A DNA stretch of 64,000 nt from Bacteroidota bacterium (GCA_018267475.1 JAFDYI010000018.1:1-64000); one strand, 5' to 3'. Numbered from the stretch's first letter, positions 3,125 to 25,618 are shown. Notes: a model not told the origin generated them from the sequence alone. Numbers and translations are program-made.

Positions 3125-5074
3125 ATGCAAATTGTAAAAGGAGACGATTTTGTAGCCGGTGAGTTATTGGCTGGCATCAACTCATCTGATGATTTAAAAA
3201 AGATAGAACTGGAAAAATTACCACAAGTATGCAATGAACTGCGCCAGTATATCATTGATTTAGTATCCGTAAAAGGCGGGCATTTTGGGGCTTCCTTGGG
3301 TGTAATAGAACTTACCACGGCGCTGCATTACGTTTTTAATACCCCTTACGATCAATTAGTGTGGGACGTGGGGCATCAAGCCTATGGGCATAAAATTCTT
3401 ACCGGCAGACGCGATCTGTTTCATACCAATCGTAAGTACAAAGGCATTAGCGGTTTTCCAAAAAGAGAGGAAAGCATCTACGATACTTTTGGTGTAGGGC
3501 ATTCTTCTACTTCCATATCAGCAGCCTTAGGCATGGCTCTTGCATCAGATTATAAAAACGAAAAAAACAAACATCATATTGCCGTTATTGGTGATGGTGC
3601 CTTAACAGCAGGGCTTGCCTTTGAAGGCTTAAACCATGCAGGCTCTTCGCATGCCAATTTATTGGTAGTGCTTAATGATAACTGCATGAGCATTGACCCG
3701 AACGTGGGCGCACTAAAAGAATATCTTACCGACATTACTACTTCGCATACCTATAATAACGTAAAAGACGAAGTGTGGAAGCTGCTGGGCAAGCTTAGTA
3801 ATTTTGGTACCAGCGCTCGCGATATTGTGTCTAAAGTACAGTTAGCCATGAAAACCTCTTTGCTGAAGCAAAGCAATATGTTTGAGTCGTTGAAGTTTCG
3901 CTACTTTGGCCCGGTTGATGGGCATGATGTGCACCGTTTGGTACAGGTTATGCAAGACCTTAAAGACATTCCCGGCCCTAAAATTTTGCATGTACTTACT
4001 AAAAAAGGGAAAGGCTATAAATTTTCGGAAGAAGGAGACGAAACTACCTGGCATGCGCCGGGTTTGTTTAATAAAGACACCGGAGAAATCATTAAAGTAA
4101 CGCCCAAAGAGCCTCAGCCCCCTAAATATCAAGACGTGTTTGGACATACTTTAGTAGAGTTAGCTGAAAAAAACGAAAAAATTATGGGCATCACTCCGGC
4201 TATGCCTAGTGGTTGCTCGCTCAACATTATGATGAAAGCCATGCCGCATCGCGCTTTTGATGTAGGTATTGCAGAGCAGCATGCCGTTACTTTTTCGGCC
4301 GGACTGGCCACGCAAGGTCTTGTGCCTTTTTGCAACATATATTCATCTTTTATGCAACGCGCTTACGACCAAGTAATACACGATGTAGCCTTGCAGAAAT
4401 TGCACGTAGTGTTTTGTTTAGACAGGGGTGGATTGGTAGGAGCCGATGGAGCCACGCACCATGGTACTTTTGATATAGCCTACTTTAGGTGCATACCCAA
4501 CATGATAGTGGCAGCGCCCATAAACGAGCAAGAACTGCGCAACCTTATGTACACCGCTCAATTAGAAAAAAATGCCGGCGCCTTTAGCATTCGCTACCCA
4601 CGCGGCAACGGGGTAATGCCCCAATGGAAAACACCTTTTGAAGAAATAAAAATAGGAACCGGAAAAAAACTAAAAGAAGGTAAAGATGTGGCCTTTCTTA
4701 GCTTCGGCACTATAGGAAATAATACCGCCCGAGCCATACAGCAATTAGAAGCTCAGGGCATCTATGCAGCCCATTATGATATGCGCTTTGCAAAACCTTT
4801 GGACGAAGAATTATTGCACCAGGTTTTTTCTTCTTATAAAAAAATAATAACTGTAGAAGACGGCTGCCTGCAAGGCGGATTTGGCAGCGCTATAGCTGAA
4901 TTTATGACCGATAACCAGTACACCGCTCATATAAAACGGTTGGGCATTATGGATGAATTTATAGAACACGGTGAACCTGATGAGCTGTATGAAGAAGTGG
5001 GCTTATCAATAAACGCCATAGCGCAAGAGGCTGTAAAATTTTTGTCTGTTAATACCCAAACCAAAATAGCATGA
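3125..5074 (+). CDS. dxs: 1-deoxy-D-xylulose-5-phosphate synthase
   Basis: DXS condenses pyruvate and glyceraldehyde 3-phosphate to 1-deoxy-D-xylulose 5-phosphate, the first step of the non-mevalonate isoprenoid pathway, using thiamine diphosphate in the cytoplasm. At 649 residues it has the usual length. Visible motifs are GHQAYGHKILTGR near residue 77, the ThDP/metal motif GDGALTAG at about 156 through NDN near 184, PVDGHD near 265, and IAEQHAV with the catalytic Glu near 383. The C-terminal transketolase domain is complete. The TGA stop overlaps the ATG of the next gene (ATGA), suggesting translational coupling. The start is supported by the promoter box four bases upstream. Confidence 0.97.
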   Translation: MQIVKGDDFVAGELLAGINSSDDLKKIELEKLPQVCNELRQYIIDLVSVKGGHFGASLGVIELTTALHYVFNTPYDQLVWDVGHQAYGHKILTGRRDLFHTNRKYKGISGFPKREESIYDTFGVGHSSTSISAALGMALASDYKNEKNKHHIAVIGDGALTAGLAFEGLNHAGSSHANLLVVLNDNCMSIDPNVGALKEYLTDITTSHTYNNVKDEVWKLLGKLSNFGTSARDIVSKVQLAMKTSLLKQSNMFESLKFRYFGPVDGHDVHRLVQVMQDLKDIPGPKILHVLTKKGKGYKFSEEGDETTWHAPGLFNKDTGEIIKVTPKEPQPPKYQDVFGHTLVELAEKNEKIMGITPAMPSGCSLNIMMKAMPHRAFDVGIAEQHAVTFSAGLATQGLVPFCNIYSSFMQRAYDQVIHDVALQKLHVVFCLDRGGLVGADGATHHGTFDIAYFRCIPNMIVAAPINEQELRNLMYTAQLEKNAGAFSIRYPRGNGVMPQWKTPFEEIKIGTGKKLKEGKDVAFLSFGTIGNNTARAIQQLEAQGIYAAHYDMRFAKPLDEELLHQVFSSYKKIITVEDGCLQGGFGSAIAEFMTDNQYTAHIKRLGIMDEFIEHGEPDELYEEVGLSINAIAQEAVKFLSVNTQTKIA

Positions 5075-5835
5075 ACACTTGCATCTCCATTGGCGTAAAG
5101 CAAATTAAAAACGTATTTTTTTTATTCTTGTTTTTTTGTTGGAGCCTAATAAAGGCACAAACGCAAACCCTTACGGATAATGCCCAGCCAAGAGTAGAAC
5201 AATCGTTTAGGCCTGTGTTTGCCGTGGGCGCACTGGGTTCGCAAATAGATGGCGATACGTACTCGGGCTACAAGCATTTGGGTTTTTTTTTAGGAGCAGG
5301 CATCAATCGCCAGCTATCTAAAGTAATAGAAGTGGAATTTATGCTTACCTTTTTACAAAAAGGCGTACGCAGCAATTACCGCACCGATTCTGCTTCGCTC
5401 AACAACCCCAACAACCCCTTTACCCTTACTCGCCTTAATTACTTAGAAATACCTTTGTATTTTAGGTTTGCCTGGAAAAAATTTAAAGCCGAAGCGGGAG
5501 GTGCTGCCGGTTTTTTGGTGCGCTACCCACCCTACAACCACACACAAGCCGGGCAAGTACCCGATTATCAAAACAAAAATTGGAATCGCTTTGATTATAG
5601 CTTTTTAATAGGCGTAGGGTATCAAATTACACACGAGTTTTTTATTGATATACGTTGGGAATACTCTTTGGTGCCGATGAGCCCTTACAATTATGGACAA
5701 AGCACGGGGGTATATCGTGGGCCGCTGGGAGGTATTTTTCACAAAGGCCTGTATAACAACTGCTTGATGCTATTGCTTAGCTATAAATTACCATACAAGG
5801 CAAAAGCCGTATCCATCGGTTCTAATGGGCACTAA
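5071..5835 (+). CDS. PorT-family outer-membrane beta-barrel protein
   Basis: This 254-residue protein has a signal peptide (about residues 12-29, ending in KAQ) and alternating hydrophobic/aromatic strands typical of the outer-membrane beta-barrel family PF13568 (PorT-like). Visible strand-like patterns include LNYLEIPLYFRF, FKAEAGGAAGFL and a C-terminal CLMLLLSYKL strand. Family members sit in the outer membrane; one, PorT, serves the type IX secretion system, but most have no known role and this one cannot be called PorT itself. It overlaps dxs by four bases and the following ubiX by about 11, so the three genes are probably one transcript. Confidence 0.75.
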   Translation: MNTCISIGVKQIKNVFFLFLFFCWSLIKAQTQTLTDNAQPRVEQSFRPVFAVGALGSQIDGDTYSGYKHLGFFLGAGINRQLSKVIEVEFMLTFLQKGVRSNYRTDSASLNNPNNPFTLTRLNYLEIPLYFRFAWKKFKAEAGGAAGFLVRYPPYNHTQAGQVPDYQNKNWNRFDYSFLIGVGYQITHEFFIDIRWEYSLVPMSPYNYGQSTGVYRGPLGGIFHKGLYNNCLMLLLSYKLPYKAKAVSIGSNGH

Positions 5836-10121: not shown

Positions 10122-11456
10122 ATGAAGATAGAGCATGTTTATCATTTATACAGCAGAGCGGGCTTTGGCATTTCCATAAGCGATGCCCAAGCTTTAGTAA
10201 ATAAAAAGGTAGAAGAAGTGGTAGAAGCTTTGCTAAACATAAACAACCCCGCTTTTATAACTTGCGTCTCTTTAGACGAATTGCCCAGCAAAGCAGAAAT
10301 GAAGAGCATGACAAAAAGCGAGAAAAGAGATTTGCTGCAAGAGTCAAAAGAAAAAATAAAACAACTTAATGTGAAGTGGGTGCAGCAAATGACAAACTCT
10401 ACCAGTCCTTTGTTAGAAAAAATAACGTTGTTTTGGCATGGGCATTTCGCTTGTCATATAGAAAACGCTTATACCACGCAAACGCTGCACAACATCACTA
10501 GGCAAAACGGCTTAGGTCTTTTTAAAAATTTGTTGGTACCCGTTTCTAAATCGGCAGCTATGCTGCAGTTTTTAAACAACAATCAAAACAAAAAACAACA
10601 CCCCAACGAAAATTTTGCACGCGAGCTGATGGAACTTTTTACTATAGGAAGAGATCATTATACCGAGCAAGATATTAAAGAATCAGCCCGCGCCTTTACC
10701 GGCTGGAATTTTAGCCCCGACACCTATGAGTTTGTACTAAAAGAACCCCAACACGATGAAGGTATTAAAACTTTTATGGGGCAAAGCGGTAATTTACAAG
10801 GTGAGGATATTATAGATATTATTTTAAGCAAAAAACAAACGGCTGTTTTTTTATGCAGAAAAATATATAGGTTTTTTGTAAACGAAACCGTAAACGAAAA
10901 ACAAGTATCCAACTTGGCTGATTTTTATTACAAAAACAACTACGATACAGGTTTGTTGTTGCATCAAATTTTTACTTCAAAGTGGTTTTATGATGATGAA
11001 AATATAGGCTGTAACATTAAATCTCCTATAGAATTTATAGTAGGTTTTGCCAAGCAATTCAGTATTATGCCCGACGATAAAACGATATTAAAAATGCAAC
11101 AAGCCTTAGGGCAGGTATTGTTTTACCCCCCTAACGTAGCAGGCTGGCCGGGTGGAAAAAACTGGATTGACAATTCTACCTTACTGCTTCGTTTAAAAAC
11201 AGCTTCGGTGATATTGAATGGAGGCAAAATAGATATAAAAGATAAAGAGGATATGCCGGAAGAATCGTTCGATTTGCCCGAAAGTATTACGGTAGTACAA
11301 ACAAAACCTTTTTACAGCAACCAGTCGGCAACCGATTTGCTTACCTGCTTGCTGCGCGTACCATTAGACGATAGTCGCTTAGCCTTTTTAAAAAGTGAAC
11401 ACAACAAACAATTGGTGCTAAAAATAGTTTCTATGCCCGAATATCAACTTTGTTAA
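10122..11456 (+). CDS. DUF1800 domain-containing protein
   Basis: The 444-residue protein matches the DUF1800 pattern: N-terminal HLYSRAGFG, the middle LFWHGHFAC, NENFARELMELFTIG, YTEQDIKESARAFTGW, and the C-terminal PPNVAGWPGGKNWIDNSTLLLR. Molecular function is unknown. DUF1800 genes nearly always sit beside a DUF1501 gene, as here with three bases between. No signal peptide is evident, so it may act in the cytoplasm or help the partner; that is inference. The start has only a weak promoter-like box (CATCTTTA). Confidence 0.9.
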   Translation: MKIEHVYHLYSRAGFGISISDAQALVNKKVEEVVEALLNINNPAFITCVSLDELPSKAEMKSMTKSEKRDLLQESKEKIKQLNVKWVQQMTNSTSPLLEKITLFWHGHFACHIENAYTTQTLHNITRQNGLGLFKNLLVPVSKSAAMLQFLNNNQNKKQHPNENFARELMELFTIGRDHYTEQDIKESARAFTGWNFSPDTYEFVLKEPQHDEGIKTFMGQSGNLQGEDIIDIILSKKQTAVFLCRKIYRFFVNETVNEKQVSNLADFYYKNNYDTGLLLHQIFTSKWFYDDENIGCNIKSPIEFIVGFAKQFSIMPDDKTILKMQQALGQVLFYPPNVAGWPGGKNWIDNSTLLLRLKTASVILNGGKIDIKDKEDMPEESFDLPESITVVQTKPFYSNQSATDLLTCLLRVPLDDSRLAFLKSEHNKQLVLKIVSMPEYQLC

Positions 11457-21591: not shown

Positions 21592-22152
21592 TTATTGTTT
21601 GGGTATAATTCGTTCTACTACCGTTTCGTTGTTTTTAGCAACATCGGTGCCGCTTATTTCTATGTACACTACATGCGGTACCCAAAAACTGCCGCCCTCT
21701 ATTTGAATAAATACGCGATCTAAGCTTATCATGCGGTTATTTACTTCGCAAAACGCACGAAATTTGCCATCGCTAGGCGATTTCATCAGGTATAGTTTTT
21801 TCTTTTTGTACGACACAAAATTAAAACAATAGGTTTGTTTTTCGGCATCAATAAGTTTGGCTTCTAAGCCGTAAGCATACTTACGCTGTATATAATTAAG
21901 TCCTTCGGTTGATTGGTCGGTAGCGTAGTTTACCCAGTGAATGACGATAGGTTCTTTTTCGTTTACGGTGCCATTTGGCTGCACGTTAAGGTCGTAAATA
22001 AGGGTATTGGTATTGAAGGTGCGTTGCACATAAAAAAGCATATTACCTGTTTTTTCAGGTTTGGGAAAAACTTTGTGCTCTCTTGGACGAGGCTCGTCAG
22101 AGAAGCTGCAAAGCCCCAAAAAAATAAGTACAAAAAGTATTGTTTTTTGCAT
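21592..22152 (-). CDS. DUF4833 secreted protein
   Basis: The 186-residue protein has an N-terminal signal peptide (QKTILFVLIFLGLCSFS) and the DUF4833 pattern: MLFYVQRTFNTNTLIYDLN, NEKEPIVIHWVNYATD and LNYIQRKYAYGLEAKLID. The family is widespread in Bacteroidota and has no known function. It is the last of five minus-strand genes with gaps of 4-19 bases and follows the ketoreductase by four bases, so it is co-transcribed with an acyl-chain-building module. Lipid or polyketide export or binding would be a natural guess, but nothing in the sequence shows it. Confidence 0.8.
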   Translation of the reverse strand: MQKTILFVLIFLGLCSFSDEPRPREHKVFPKPEKTGNMLFYVQRTFNTNTLIYDLNVQPNGTVNEKEPIVIHWVNYATDQSTEGLNYIQRKYAYGLEAKLIDAEKQTYCFNFVSYKKKKLYLMKSPSDGKFRAFCEVNNRMISLDRVFIQIEGGSFWVPHVVYIEISGTDVAKNNETVVERIIPKQ

Positions 22153-22156
22153 TTTT

Positions 22157-22897
22157 TTAGTCGGCCCAGTCTAAGCCTCCGTTTACTTCGATGGTTTGTC
22201 CGTTTACAAAGCTAGCAGCGTCGGTTCCTAAAAATAAAATTACTTCGGCTACTTCTTCCAGATGGCCTAAGCGTTTGGTAGGGCAGTGTTGTATCCAAAA
22301 ACCACGCAGCGCCGAGCTTAAATTTTCTTTTACCATATCGGTTTCAAACATGCCGGGTGCTACTACGTTGCTGGTAATTCCTTTAGAGCCATATTCTTTG
22401 GCTATGGTTCTGGATAAACCTATCAAACCTGCTTTGCTGGCAGCATAGTTGGCTTGCCCGGATAATCCGTCTTTAGCAATAGAAGACAAGCTAATAAAAC
22501 GGCCTTTTCTTTTCGATAAAAATTCGGGTAAGAAAGCACGCATTACATAAAAAGTGCCGCTAAGGTTGGTTCCTATCACGTCGTCCCACTCTTCGTCGGT
22601 CATGCTGAAGGCTAAGTTGTTTCGGTTAATGCCTGCGTTATTAACCACTACATCAATGGTGTCAAAATCCATCAGTACTGAGTCCACCACATCAAGTACT
22701 TGTTCGTTATAGCGTACATTTAATTGATAGCCTTTGCATAGTTGGTTGGGGGCTATTTTTTTTGCCTCGGCTATTATTTTAGCTACATCGGTGTTGGGGT
22801 TGTTATAGGTAAAAGCCACGTCGTGCCCTCGTTCTAAGGCCATCATCATTGTTTTGTATCCAATACCTCTTGAGGCTCCGGTAATAAAAATTTTCAT
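22157..22897 (-). CDS. FabG-like 3-oxoacyl-ACP reductase of the acyl-module operon
   Basis: This 246-residue short-chain dehydrogenase/reductase has TGASRGIG at residues 6-13, NNAGI, the catalytic Ser in SLSSIA, and YAASK with the catalytic Tyr and Lys. That is the full SDR tetrad, with a C-terminal GGLDWAD. It would reduce 3-oxoacyl thioesters to 3-hydroxyacyl thioesters with NADPH. A second FabG is encoded at 41446-42192 and is a better match to the housekeeping enzyme. This copy is tightly packed with a ketosynthase, dehydratase and acyltransferase, so it probably works only in that module. Confidence 0.88.
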   Translation of the reverse strand: MKIFITGASRGIGYKTMMMALERGHDVAFTYNNPNTDVAKIIAEAKKIAPNQLCKGYQLNVRYNEQVLDVVDSVLMDFDTIDVVVNNAGINRNNLAFSMTDEEWDDVIGTNLSGTFYVMRAFLPEFLSKRKGRFISLSSIAKDGLSGQANYAASKAGLIGLSRTIAKEYGSKGITSNVVAPGMFETDMVKENLSSALRGFWIQHCPTKRLGHLEEVAEVILFLGTDAASFVNGQTIEVNGGLDWAD

Positions 22898-22916
22898 GGG
22901 TTGGGTGTGCTGTTTG

Positions 22917-24218
22917 TTATTTTATCACGGAACCTTTTCCGGTATATTTTTTTATTAAGCTGATGCTGTTTAATCCGCCAAAGCCAAACGAGTTTTTTAA
23001 TAAGATGTTGATGTTGTGTTTCACTTTTTGGTTGCGACACACGTCTATATCTACTTCAGCATCTAGGTTTTCTATGTTGATAGAGGGGTGTAGTTCATTT
23101 CTGTTCATTTGCAGTATGGCGGCTACAGTTTCTACAGTAGCGGCACTCCAGCAGGTATGGCCTAACATAGATTTGGGTGCATTTATTTTTACTGTTTTGC
23201 AATGAGCGCCAAACACATCTTTTATAGAGCGCAGTTCCGTTAAATCGCCTAAGGGGGTAGAGGTAGCGTGTGCGCTTATATAATCTACTTCTTCTGGTTT
23301 TACGTTGCAATTTTTTAATAGACGTTTCATTAAACGTGCTTGCCCTATTTGTGAAGGTTGCGGTAAGTGGTTACCATCAGATGACGACTCTACGCCTAAT
23401 ATTTCGGCATAAATTTTGGCTCCGCGGGCTATGGCGTGTTCGTACTCTTCTACTACTAATACGGCCGCTCCGTGAGAGGGTACAAAACCTTCGCGTTTGG
23501 TATCATACGGGCGACTGGCACGGTGGGGCTCGTCAATAAACGATTTGTATGAAATAGCACCCATAATGGCCATACCTTGCAAATCAAGTGGAGAATAATC
23601 TAATACAGGGGCTACTACCGCTGCCACAGGCACATCGTGTTGCTGAATTTCATCTACGGCACAGCGCAAAGCTACGTTTCCGCTAGCGCAGGCTGCCCCT
23701 ACGGTATAGGCGGGGCCGTGCAGTTGTAATACGTCGGTAACGCTGCCCACGTGATGGGTATCCAAACCATATAAGGCAAATAAGCCATCTACATAATCCG
23801 GATCTTCATTAAAAGCATCGTGATTTTCAAAAGTATATTTTTGATTAAGATTGTGGCCGGCTACTACCGTAGCAATGTTGTTGCCCTCTTGTATTTTATC
23901 AATATAGCCGGCATCTAAAAAGGCTTCTACCGCTGTTTGCAGTGAAACAGCAATAGAAAACGGCGATTTTTTTCCTAATTTAGCAAAGCGATTAAAGACC
24001 TCAGTAGGTATTTTTCCTTGATAGCTGTCTATTTTAGCGCTGATGTCGTATTCACCTAAATCGCCCCCTACTTTGCTGTATATTTTGCTTGAGTTTAGGG
24101 TTTTCCAATTACAGATAGCCGATTTACCAGCCAATAGATTATTAATAAAGGTTTCTAAATTGTCTCCTAAGGGAGTATTGATAGACATGCCTGTTATTAC
24201 TACGCGTTTTTTTAACAT
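22917..24218 (-). CDS. Beta-ketoacyl synthase (FabF-like, polyketide-type)
   Basis: Condenses an acyl chain with a malonyl-derived extender. The 433-residue protein begins RVVITGMSINTPLGDN like KAS I/II. All three catalytic residues are present: Cys in GAACASGN, His in SAHATSTPLGD, and His in KSMLGHTCWSA. Unlike ordinary FabF it has an unusual middle (NLNQKYTFENHDAF, LFALYGLDTHHVGSVTDVLQ) and ACAS rather than ACSS/ACAT at the nucleophile. Those features remind me of free-standing synthases in polyketide clusters, which is a recollection and not a search result. The gene lies 19 bases from each neighbour in the operon. Confidence 0.88.
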   Translation of the reverse strand: MLKKRVVITGMSINTPLGDNLETFINNLLAGKSAICNWKTLNSSKIYSKVGGDLGEYDISAKIDSYQGKIPTEVFNRFAKLGKKSPFSIAVSLQTAVEAFLDAGYIDKIQEGNNIATVVAGHNLNQKYTFENHDAFNEDPDYVDGLFALYGLDTHHVGSVTDVLQLHGPAYTVGAACASGNVALRCAVDEIQQHDVPVAAVVAPVLDYSPLDLQGMAIMGAISYKSFIDEPHRASRPYDTKREGFVPSHGAAVLVVEEYEHAIARGAKIYAEILGVESSSDGNHLPQPSQIGQARLMKRLLKNCNVKPEEVDYISAHATSTPLGDLTELRSIKDVFGAHCKTVKINAPKSMLGHTCWSAATVETVAAILQMNRNELHPSINIENLDAEVDIDVCRNQKVKHNINILLKNSFGFGGLNSISLIKKYTGKGSVIK

Positions 24219-24237
24219 AGGTTTTTTTATTTTTTAA

Positions 24238-24768
24238 TTATGGATAATATACTTCTAAAATGCTGTGTGAATAAATTTCGTTGTTTACCAAAGCTTGGGC
24301 TTGCATCACTCCCATAAAATCATCGTCTTCTATTGATTTTACACGAATGGTTAGTACATCGCCGGGCTTTACCGCTTTATTAAATCCGGCATTGTGTACG
24401 CGGGTAAACAAGCCTTGTACCGGCTTGCTTTTTTCATTTATTTGTGTGGTTTTATTTTTAATAAAGTACGATAAGCACAAGCCTGCCTGCCCCATGCTTT
24501 CTATCTGAAATACGCCCGGAAATACCGGCATACCCGGAAAATGTCCTGCGAAAACGGGGTCTTTAGGGTTTACCAGGTAGCTTACTTCGATGCACGCTTG
24601 CTCAATATGGATAGCGTGAATGGTACTTACCAAAACAAAAGGATTTCGGTGCGGAATAATTTTTTGAATGTCGGGCAGGCCGTACGAAACCGATGCAGCG
24701 CCTAAGGGCATCTCTATCTTGTCGCGTTTCAGGCTGTTTATTAAAATTTCTTTTGCTTCGGTATTCAC
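24238..24768 (-). CDS. FabZ-like 3-hydroxyacyl-ACP dehydratase
   Basis: Predicted to remove water from 3-hydroxyacyl-ACP to give the trans-2-enoyl product. The 176-residue protein has the hot-dog motifs of FabZ: IQKIIPHRNPFVLV, then AGHFPGMPVFPGVFQIESMGQAG, in which His of GHFPG and Glu of QIESM are the catalytic pair. About 25 extra residues precede the usual FabZ start. The start codon is GTG, four bases after the acyltransferase stop. No enoyl reductase is encoded in this operon, so products could keep double bonds if no outside reductase acts. Confidence 0.87.
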   Translation of the reverse strand: MNTEAKEILINSLKRDKIEMPLGAASVSYGLPDIQKIIPHRNPFVLVSTIHAIHIEQACIEVSYLVNPKDPVFAGHFPGMPVFPGVFQIESMGQAGLCLSYFIKNKTTQINEKSKPVQGLFTRVHNAGFNKAVKPGDVLTIRVKSIEDDDFMGVMQAQALVNNEIYSHSILEVYYP

Positions 24769-24772
24769 AAAC

Positions 24773-25618
24773 TTAGCTTTTTATTTTTTTTAAGATATTG
24801 GTAAGCACTTCTCCGGGGCCTATTTCTACAAAATCACATTCGCCCTGGTAGGTAAGGTATTCGATGCTTTGCAACCATTTTACGCGATTATCCAATTGGT
24901 TTGCCATGTTTTTTAAAATACCCTGTGCGTCATCTGGATAAGGCGAAGCGGTGTAATTAGATAATACGGGTATTTTGCATGCGTTTACTTTTGTTTGAGA
25001 AATGAATTGTTCAAACTGTATTTTTACAGAGGTCATATAGCGCGAATGGAATGCGCCGCTTACTTTTAGCGGAATATATACAAAGCCTTCTTCTTCAAAT
25101 ACGTCGGCGGCCTTATCTAAGCTTGTTAAAGGACCTGATATTACTAATTGAGCCGGTGTATTTACATTGGCTATATCAATATCGGTAAAATGTTGTTGCA
25201 ATATCTCTTTTACTTCTTTGTACTCGGCGCCTACTATGGCTGCCATACCGGTGCCGGGTATAGAGAACATTAATTCGCCTCGTTTTTGCACTATTTTTAG
25301 ACCGGTTTCAAAGTCAAAAACACCGGCGGCGTTTAGCGCGTTAAATTCACCTAAGCTGTGCCCTATGTAGTAGTCTGGGGTTTTATGCTCTTGCAAATGT
25401 TTTTGCAGGTGGAGGTAGTTTACTACGTACAAAGCGGGTTGTGTGTAGGAGGTAAGATTTAATTTATTGTCGGGGTTGTGCAGGCATATCTCGGCTACAT
25501 TATATCCCAAAACGGTATTGGCTTTGGCCACTATGTCGGCAAATTCTGTAAATAAAGCGCCGCCCATGCCCGCATACTGCGAGCCCTGCCCAGGAAACAT
25601 AATGGTTTTGAGGGTCAT
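24773..25618 (-). CDS. Malonyl-CoA:ACP acyltransferase, FabD/trans-AT-like
   Basis: Loads malonyl groups onto an acyl carrier protein. The 281-residue protein shows FPGQGSQYAGMG at the N-terminus, the nucleophile motif GHSLGEFNAL, the partner His in GAFHSRYM and FVEIGPGEVL at the end. The segment after the nucleophile (NALNAAGVFDFETGLKIVQKRGELM, given as pattern) looks more like free-standing acyltransferases of trans-AT polyketide systems than housekeeping FabD. That resemblance is my recollection and needs a tree. It is the first gene of the five-gene operon and has a promoter box 21 bases upstream. Confidence 0.86.
   Translation of the reverse strand: MTLKTIMFPGQGSQYAGMGGALFTEFADIVAKANTVLGYNVAEICLHNPDNKLNLTSYTQPALYVVNYLHLQKHLQEHKTPDYYIGHSLGEFNALNAAGVFDFETGLKIVQKRGELMFSIPGTGMAAIVGAEYKEVKEILQQHFTDIDIANVNTPAQLVISGPLTSLDKAADVFEEEGFVYIPLKVSGAFHSRYMTSVKIQFEQFISQTKVNACKIPVLSNYTASPYPDDAQGILKNMANQLDNRVKWLQSIEYLTYQGECDFVEIGPGEVLTNILKKIKS

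Follow-up and report, generated by a model that had tools for sequence, protein, structure and literature searches.

Four chain-building enzymes encoded in one operon, with no acyl carrier protein (ACP) among them, raise the question of what they build and with which partners. The operon specifies an acyltransferase (AT), a dehydratase (DH), a ketosynthase (KS) and a ketoreductase (KR), and lies in a 64,000-nucleotide stretch of an uncultured Bacteroidota genome (the window, G000:C9:1-64000) known from a 37-contig draft assembly of 2.76 Mb that is 99% complete. An earlier note on the window had proposed a minimal system, perhaps making a lipid or polyene, that borrows its ACP. Here we present evidence that the operon is rather probably one piece of a type II trans-AT acyl synthase whose enzymes are all discrete and whose genes are dispersed, equipped for beta-branching by an HMG synthase (HMGS) and feeding an alpha-oxoamine synthase to yield an amino-lipid.

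An operon distinct from primary fatty acid synthesis

The operon consists of five open reading frames, separated by 4, 19, 19 and 4 bases:

24773..25618, minus strand: AT, 281 amino acids, of the trans-AT polyketide synthase (PKS) kind, active-site Ser88 in GHSLGE
24238..24768, minus strand: DH, hot-dog protein, FabZ-like, GTG start, GHFPG and QIESM intact
22917..24218, minus strand: KS, with Cys177 (codon 23690-23688), His317, Lys349 and His354
22157..22897, minus strand: KR, FabG-type SDR, Yx3K motif (Y-A-A-S-K)
21592..22152, minus strand: DUF4833 protein, secreted, fifth gene of the operon (PF16117, 1.6e-39)

The tight packing reported in the earlier note is thus borne out, as is its statement that the catalytic residues of AT, DH, KS and KR are all present. 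By profile score, the AT clears the fabD model TIGR00128 (296 vs a cut-off of 261), the DH is FabA/FabZ-like yet falls under both FabZ cut-offs, the KS is matched best by PRK07103 (347, cut-off 445) and next by FabF (304, cut-off 494), and the KR scores under the cut-off for its FabG-type assignment. The AT-DH-KS-KR order repeats in relatives, with proteins 63-91% identical, which places the arrangement far beyond chance; the GTG start of the DH is common to these relatives. The operon contains no ACP, KS III, chain-length factor or enoyl reductase, and contig C9, which carries it, yields no ACP match. Its GC content is slightly above that of the flanking DNA, and scans for an operon promoter and terminator gave no excess over shuffled sequences. 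No solved structure matched the DUF4833 protein at E <= 0.001. A second DUF4833 gene (C31:52545-53069) is 45% identical to the window copy and has relatives in cluster-free genomes as well.

The passage of the AT over the FabD cut-off might suggest that the operon is the organism's primary fatty acid synthase, an idea to which we give next to no credence. The same genome encodes a canonical FabD (C3:156437-157300; 337 bits on TIGR00128) and a FabF with an ACP (C3:199874-201432), the trees described below put KS and AT outside the FabF and FabD clades, and most genomes of the family lack the operon altogether. On the separate FabD, FabF and ACP and on these trees the primary-synthase reading is rejected; as had been claimed, this is not the housekeeping set. 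The earlier note had taken placement of both proteins within the housekeeping FabD and FabF clades, in a genome with no other fabD/fabF, as the refuting outcome; the trees and the separate gene copies show the opposite.

Every KS match in the genome sits in an open frame of only 334-440 amino acids, so no multidomain or modular PKS is seen among these matches. Three other KS loci are separate from the operon. At C8:10.5-20 kb (L057:7551-17322), a multi-KS cluster with two ACPs, hot-dog proteins, an acyltransferase and membrane proteins looks like an aryl-polyene or flexirubin-type locus; C16:73.7-76.3 kb (L058:11772-14291) holds an ACP-KS pair followed by another KS-like protein, and C4:240-2191 a KR-KS pair. 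The window KS stands outside the C8 group, as a single KS of another clade with no chain-length-factor partner, and membership of the aryl polyene or flexirubin type II class was dropped as a candidate; a polyene product is not indicated.

Relationships of the ketosynthase and acyltransferase

A tree of 40 ketosynthases places the window family and a homologue from Serratia fonticola together on one side of a branch (100/99), and a second branch (100/99) separates these and nine KSs of HMG-synthase (HCS) beta-branching cassettes from the FabF-type KSs. The reference KSs and ATs were sampled from plasmid records and a small number of genomes, short of a full survey; on this sampling the window KS is resolved as sister to the decarboxylating ketosynthases of HCS cassettes. 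These have been described as condensation-inactive (PMC10006238) and assigned to a separate type II class of decarboxylating enzymes (PMC9582728). The nucleophile position is occupied by Ser in eight of the nine cassette KSs, by Met in the ninth, and by Cys in the window family and the Serratia homologue; because Cys is retained where the cassette enzymes have Ser, the window KS is expected to remain competent for condensation.

The AT tree, rebuilt after a first version had been distorted by one broken row and two distant rows, sets the FabD clade apart from a group made up of the window family and trans-ATs (97/99). Sequence identity of the window AT is 49% with a trans-AT from Bacillus and 35.5% with the FabD of its own genome, and its closest solved structures are PksE, PksC and DisD (255-276 bits, vs about 175 for the best housekeeping-type FabD). 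Trees and structural matches agree in grouping it with the acyltransferases of trans-AT PKSs, a likeness of both AT and KS that the earlier note had recognized.

Dispersed partner genes and their co-occurrence

In relatives the four genes are conserved within a cluster of about 15, PPTase-GNAT-PAP2-AT-DH-KS-KR-HMGS-ECH1 / SDRb-ECH2 / ACP-SDRa-alpha-oxoamine synthase-SDRc. PPTase, GNAT and PAP2 precede AT-DH-KS-KR, and HMGS and ECH1 follow; SDRb-ECH2 forms a divergent pair and ACP-SDRa-oxoamine synthase-SDRc an operon, both near the four genes. A DUF4833 gene is often present, at several different positions adjoining SDRc or PPTase. Relatives carry the parts in one or two clusters, and one stretch (L096) holds the entire set. 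Two relatives, G009 and G023, have tandem repeats between genes that can be read as short peptide motifs in repetition; some of these lie within the cluster region (L054:3084-3317 and 5040-5315; L170:1161-1667 and 10629-11306).

All parts tested are also present in the window genome, spread over six contigs, each piece amid unrelated genes:

C9, window operon: AT, DH, KS, KR, DUF4833
C5, 69.8-73.0 kb: ACP, SDRa, oxoamine synthase (AOS), SDRc
C37, 7.7-9.2 kb: SDRb, ECH2
C34, 96.8-98.0 kb: HMGS, 75% identical to a relative's HMGS
C33, 130.1-130.8 kb: ECH1 (54%)
C24, 108.9-111.0 kb: GNAT, PAP2

The system is therefore not minimal: HMGS, ECH1, ECH2, oxoamine synthase, ACP and SDRs lie at other loci here and beside the four genes in relatives. 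The lack of an ACP and enoyl reductase holds for the operon itself and fails for the genome, which has SDRa, SDRb and, besides the FabF-linked ACP on C3, a dedicated ACP of AcpK type on C5, so that none need be borrowed. This ACP has PRK07117 as its sole NCBIfam match (51.6 bits, cut-off 79) and, aligned with cassette ACPs, does not carry the Trp flag of acceptor ACPs. The closest solved relatives of the HMGS are CurD and PksG, and its catalytic Cys, Glu and His are kept; ECH2 passes the PRK07110 cut-off (277.8 bits vs 215), as does a relative's ECH2, and ECH1 has PRK07112 as its top profile, under the cut-off. A Yx6K spacing characterizes FabI/FabL-type enoyl reductases and Yx3K ketoreductases; SDRa and SDRb have Yx6K and would be two enoyl-reductase-like SDRs, and SDRc has Yx3K. 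Weighed as a candidate serine palmitoyltransferase (SPT) equivalog, the oxoamine synthase is a clear member of the AOS family with its PLP lysine kept (TFSKAFGG), yet at 226-264 bits, against cut-offs of 500-670, it stays under every NCBIfam cut-off, for which reason any amino acid and acyl chain assigned to it are putative.

Although unlinked in the window genome, KS, HMGS, oxoamine synthase and GNAT show near-perfect co-occurrence. The KS is found in 12 of 61 family genomes at 79-89% identity, well separated from the next-best matches at 37%; oxoamine synthase (11 genomes), HMGS (11) and the GNAT orthologue (10) all fall within these 12, and some of the absences are in incomplete assemblies. 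For both oxoamine synthase and HMGS the association with KS gives a Fisher p of 3e-11 over the 61 genomes, a value that ignores shared ancestry. DUF4833, which the earlier note had named as the fifth gene, is likewise linked to the system (11 of 12 KS genomes vs 6 of 49 others). Between the window genome and its relatives the KS (79-89% identity) diverges at the pace of FabF (76-84%), which suggests vertical descent with losses over recent transfer; a recent horizontal arrival within the family is unsupported, given this divergence and an operon GC near that of the flanks. The system occurs in two of 395 sampled genomes of the class Bacteroidia. All 17 close matches in the named collection come from environmental assemblies, most of them under the label Bacteroidetes or Sphingobacteriaceae. 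One record (L092, CAJCJB010000183.1), labelled Candidatus Saccharibacteria, holds this Bacteroidota cluster and is probably mislabelled or a mixed bin.

A candidate amino-lipid pathway and its alternatives

The product is probably a methyl-branched, sphingolipid-like amino-lipid. From the parts, motifs, neighbourhoods and co-occurrence we infer the substrate, amino acid, reaction order, branch position and lipid product as follows. The trans-AT-type AT would load malonate onto the AcpK-type ACP, the Cys-KS would elongate, and KR, DH and the FabL-like SDRa and SDRb would finish reduction. At one step a beta-ketoacyl-ACP, perhaps acetoacetyl-ACP leading to an isovaleryl-type starter, would be attacked by acetyl-ACP on the HMGS, after which dehydration by ECH1 and decarboxylation by ECH2 would leave a beta-methyl branch. 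The oxoamine synthase would then join acyl-ACP and amino acid with loss of CO2, and SDRc would reduce the ketone of the resulting amino-ketone. N-acylation by the GNAT and action of PAP2 on a phosphorylated lipid may then give a ceramide-like amino-lipid, roles suggested by family names and by a model of moderate confidence (pLDDT 73), and the DUF4833 protein would be a secreted accessory. Since the window KS keeps its Cys, the acetyl-ACP donor would have to be made by this KS in a second role or by a different enzyme. Tentatively, and with only a modest chance of being right, we suggest that a single Cys-KS performs elongation and also provides the acetyl donor, giving a beta-methyl-branched sphingoid-type membrane lipid. 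The need for such a donor, the missing Trp flag of the ACP, the low scores of the oxoamine synthase and its absence from the Serratia stretches described below count against the pathway.

Its parts recall three known kinds of system. HCS cassettes (acpK-pksF-pksG-pksH-pksI with pksC in bacillaene; VirC/D/E in virginiamycin), whose chemistry provides a precedent (PMC10006238), are beta-branching add-ons of trans-AT PKSs and share with the window system an AcpK-type ACP, a sister-clade KS, a PksG/CurD-type HMGS, ECH1, ECH2 and a trans-AT-type AT. Unlike them, the window system has a Cys rather than Ser KS, no modular PKS seen, and its own KR, DH, enoyl-reductase-like SDRs and oxoamine synthase. 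In PfSgaAB(C) of Pseudomonas fluorescens MYb115, a PKS is proven to pass its chain to an oxoamine synthase to make sphingolipids (PMC12134224); both systems combine a polyketide-type synthase, an alpha-oxoamine synthase and a ketodihydrosphinganine-reductase-like SDR, but SgaA is a single iterative type I PKS, whereas the window system is all discrete and has an HMGS branching set. The SPT of Rhodobacteria uses a dedicated ACP, AcpR (PMC9386255), and here too the oxoamine synthase gene adjoins its own ACP gene, although the rhodobacterial ACP is charged by an acyl-ACP synthetase and the window ACP apparently by AT and KS. Housekeeping FAS II (FabD/FabF/FabZ/FabG) performs the same reaction types. 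What sets the system apart is that its HMGS set accompanies a condensing KS while no modular PKS is seen. In the open-licence literature we found no described equivalent of the whole system and no paper linking an HCS cassette with an oxoamine synthase.

Among other readings, the set might build isovaleryl- or 3-methylcrotonyl-ACP from acetate as an iso-starter for membrane fatty acids, the oxoamine synthase being a parallel user. HMGS, ECH1 and ECH2 acting on acetoacetyl-ACP would yield 3-methylcrotonyl-ACP, which the enoyl-reductase-like SDRs could reduce; a comparable route to isovaleryl-CoA is described in Myxococcus (PMC7756340), and the Serratia cassette described below has no oxoamine synthase in the stretches examined. 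We nevertheless regard this as unlikely, as one operon encodes the oxoamine synthase together with the dedicated ACP and one of the enoyl-reductase-like SDRs, all 11 genomes with the synthase also have the KS, and KR, DH and a condensing KS suggest more elongation.

Less likely again is a diffusible alpha-aminoketone-derived product (signal, pyrrole or antibiotic) in place of a membrane lipid. Oxoamine synthases also work in signal and pigment pathways, and the cluster is patchy within family and class; yet KS divergence at FabF pace and survival of all parts while unlinked suit a stable cell constituent, the PAP2 and GNAT genes fit lipid tailoring, and no transporter or regulator was seen conserved with the cluster. 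That KS, AT, HMGS, ECH2 and ACP simply form a standard HCS cassette for a modular trans-AT PKS encoded at another locus of this genome is highly improbable: they resemble its parts, and the discrete AcpK-type ACP, HMGS homologue, ECH1 and ECH2 are all there, but the window KS is not the Ser-type, condensation-inactive decarboxylase, and a PKS partner with acceptor ACPs is largely ruled out by the short KS frames.

If correct, the tentative reading in which a single Cys-KS has both roles would represent a new lipid class and possibly an ancestral HCS cassette, from a time when the KS still had its cysteine and did not yet assist modular PKSs. Beta-branching by HMGS has been known as an accessory of giant modular PKSs. 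In a stand-alone form, with its own condensing KS, a full reduction set and an oxoamine synthase, it would enter lipid synthesis and offer a testable hypothesis on the origin of the decarboxylating cassette KS. The scattered parts illustrate how a pathway can escape operon-by-operon annotation.

Plasmid pSF001 of Serratia fonticola GS2 (CP013914) carries ACP, AT, DH, KS, KR, HMGS, ECH1, ECH2 and SDR genes of the same kinds. Identity to the window system is 59% for ACP, up to 50% for KS, 47% for KR and HMGS, 52% for ECH2, 40% for DH and 38% for AT, and the KS is of the Cys type. The record has duplicate overlapping cassette ends and frameshifts (L131, 110-131.5 kb; L130, 1-9 kb), which leave the intactness of the cassette unsure; the duplication probably arose when the circular junction was misassembled. 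The stretches examined hold no modular PKS and no match to oxoamine synthase, GNAT, PAP2 or DUF4833, and it follows that the branching core may occur by itself in discrete form; the oxoamine synthase step may be an add-on.
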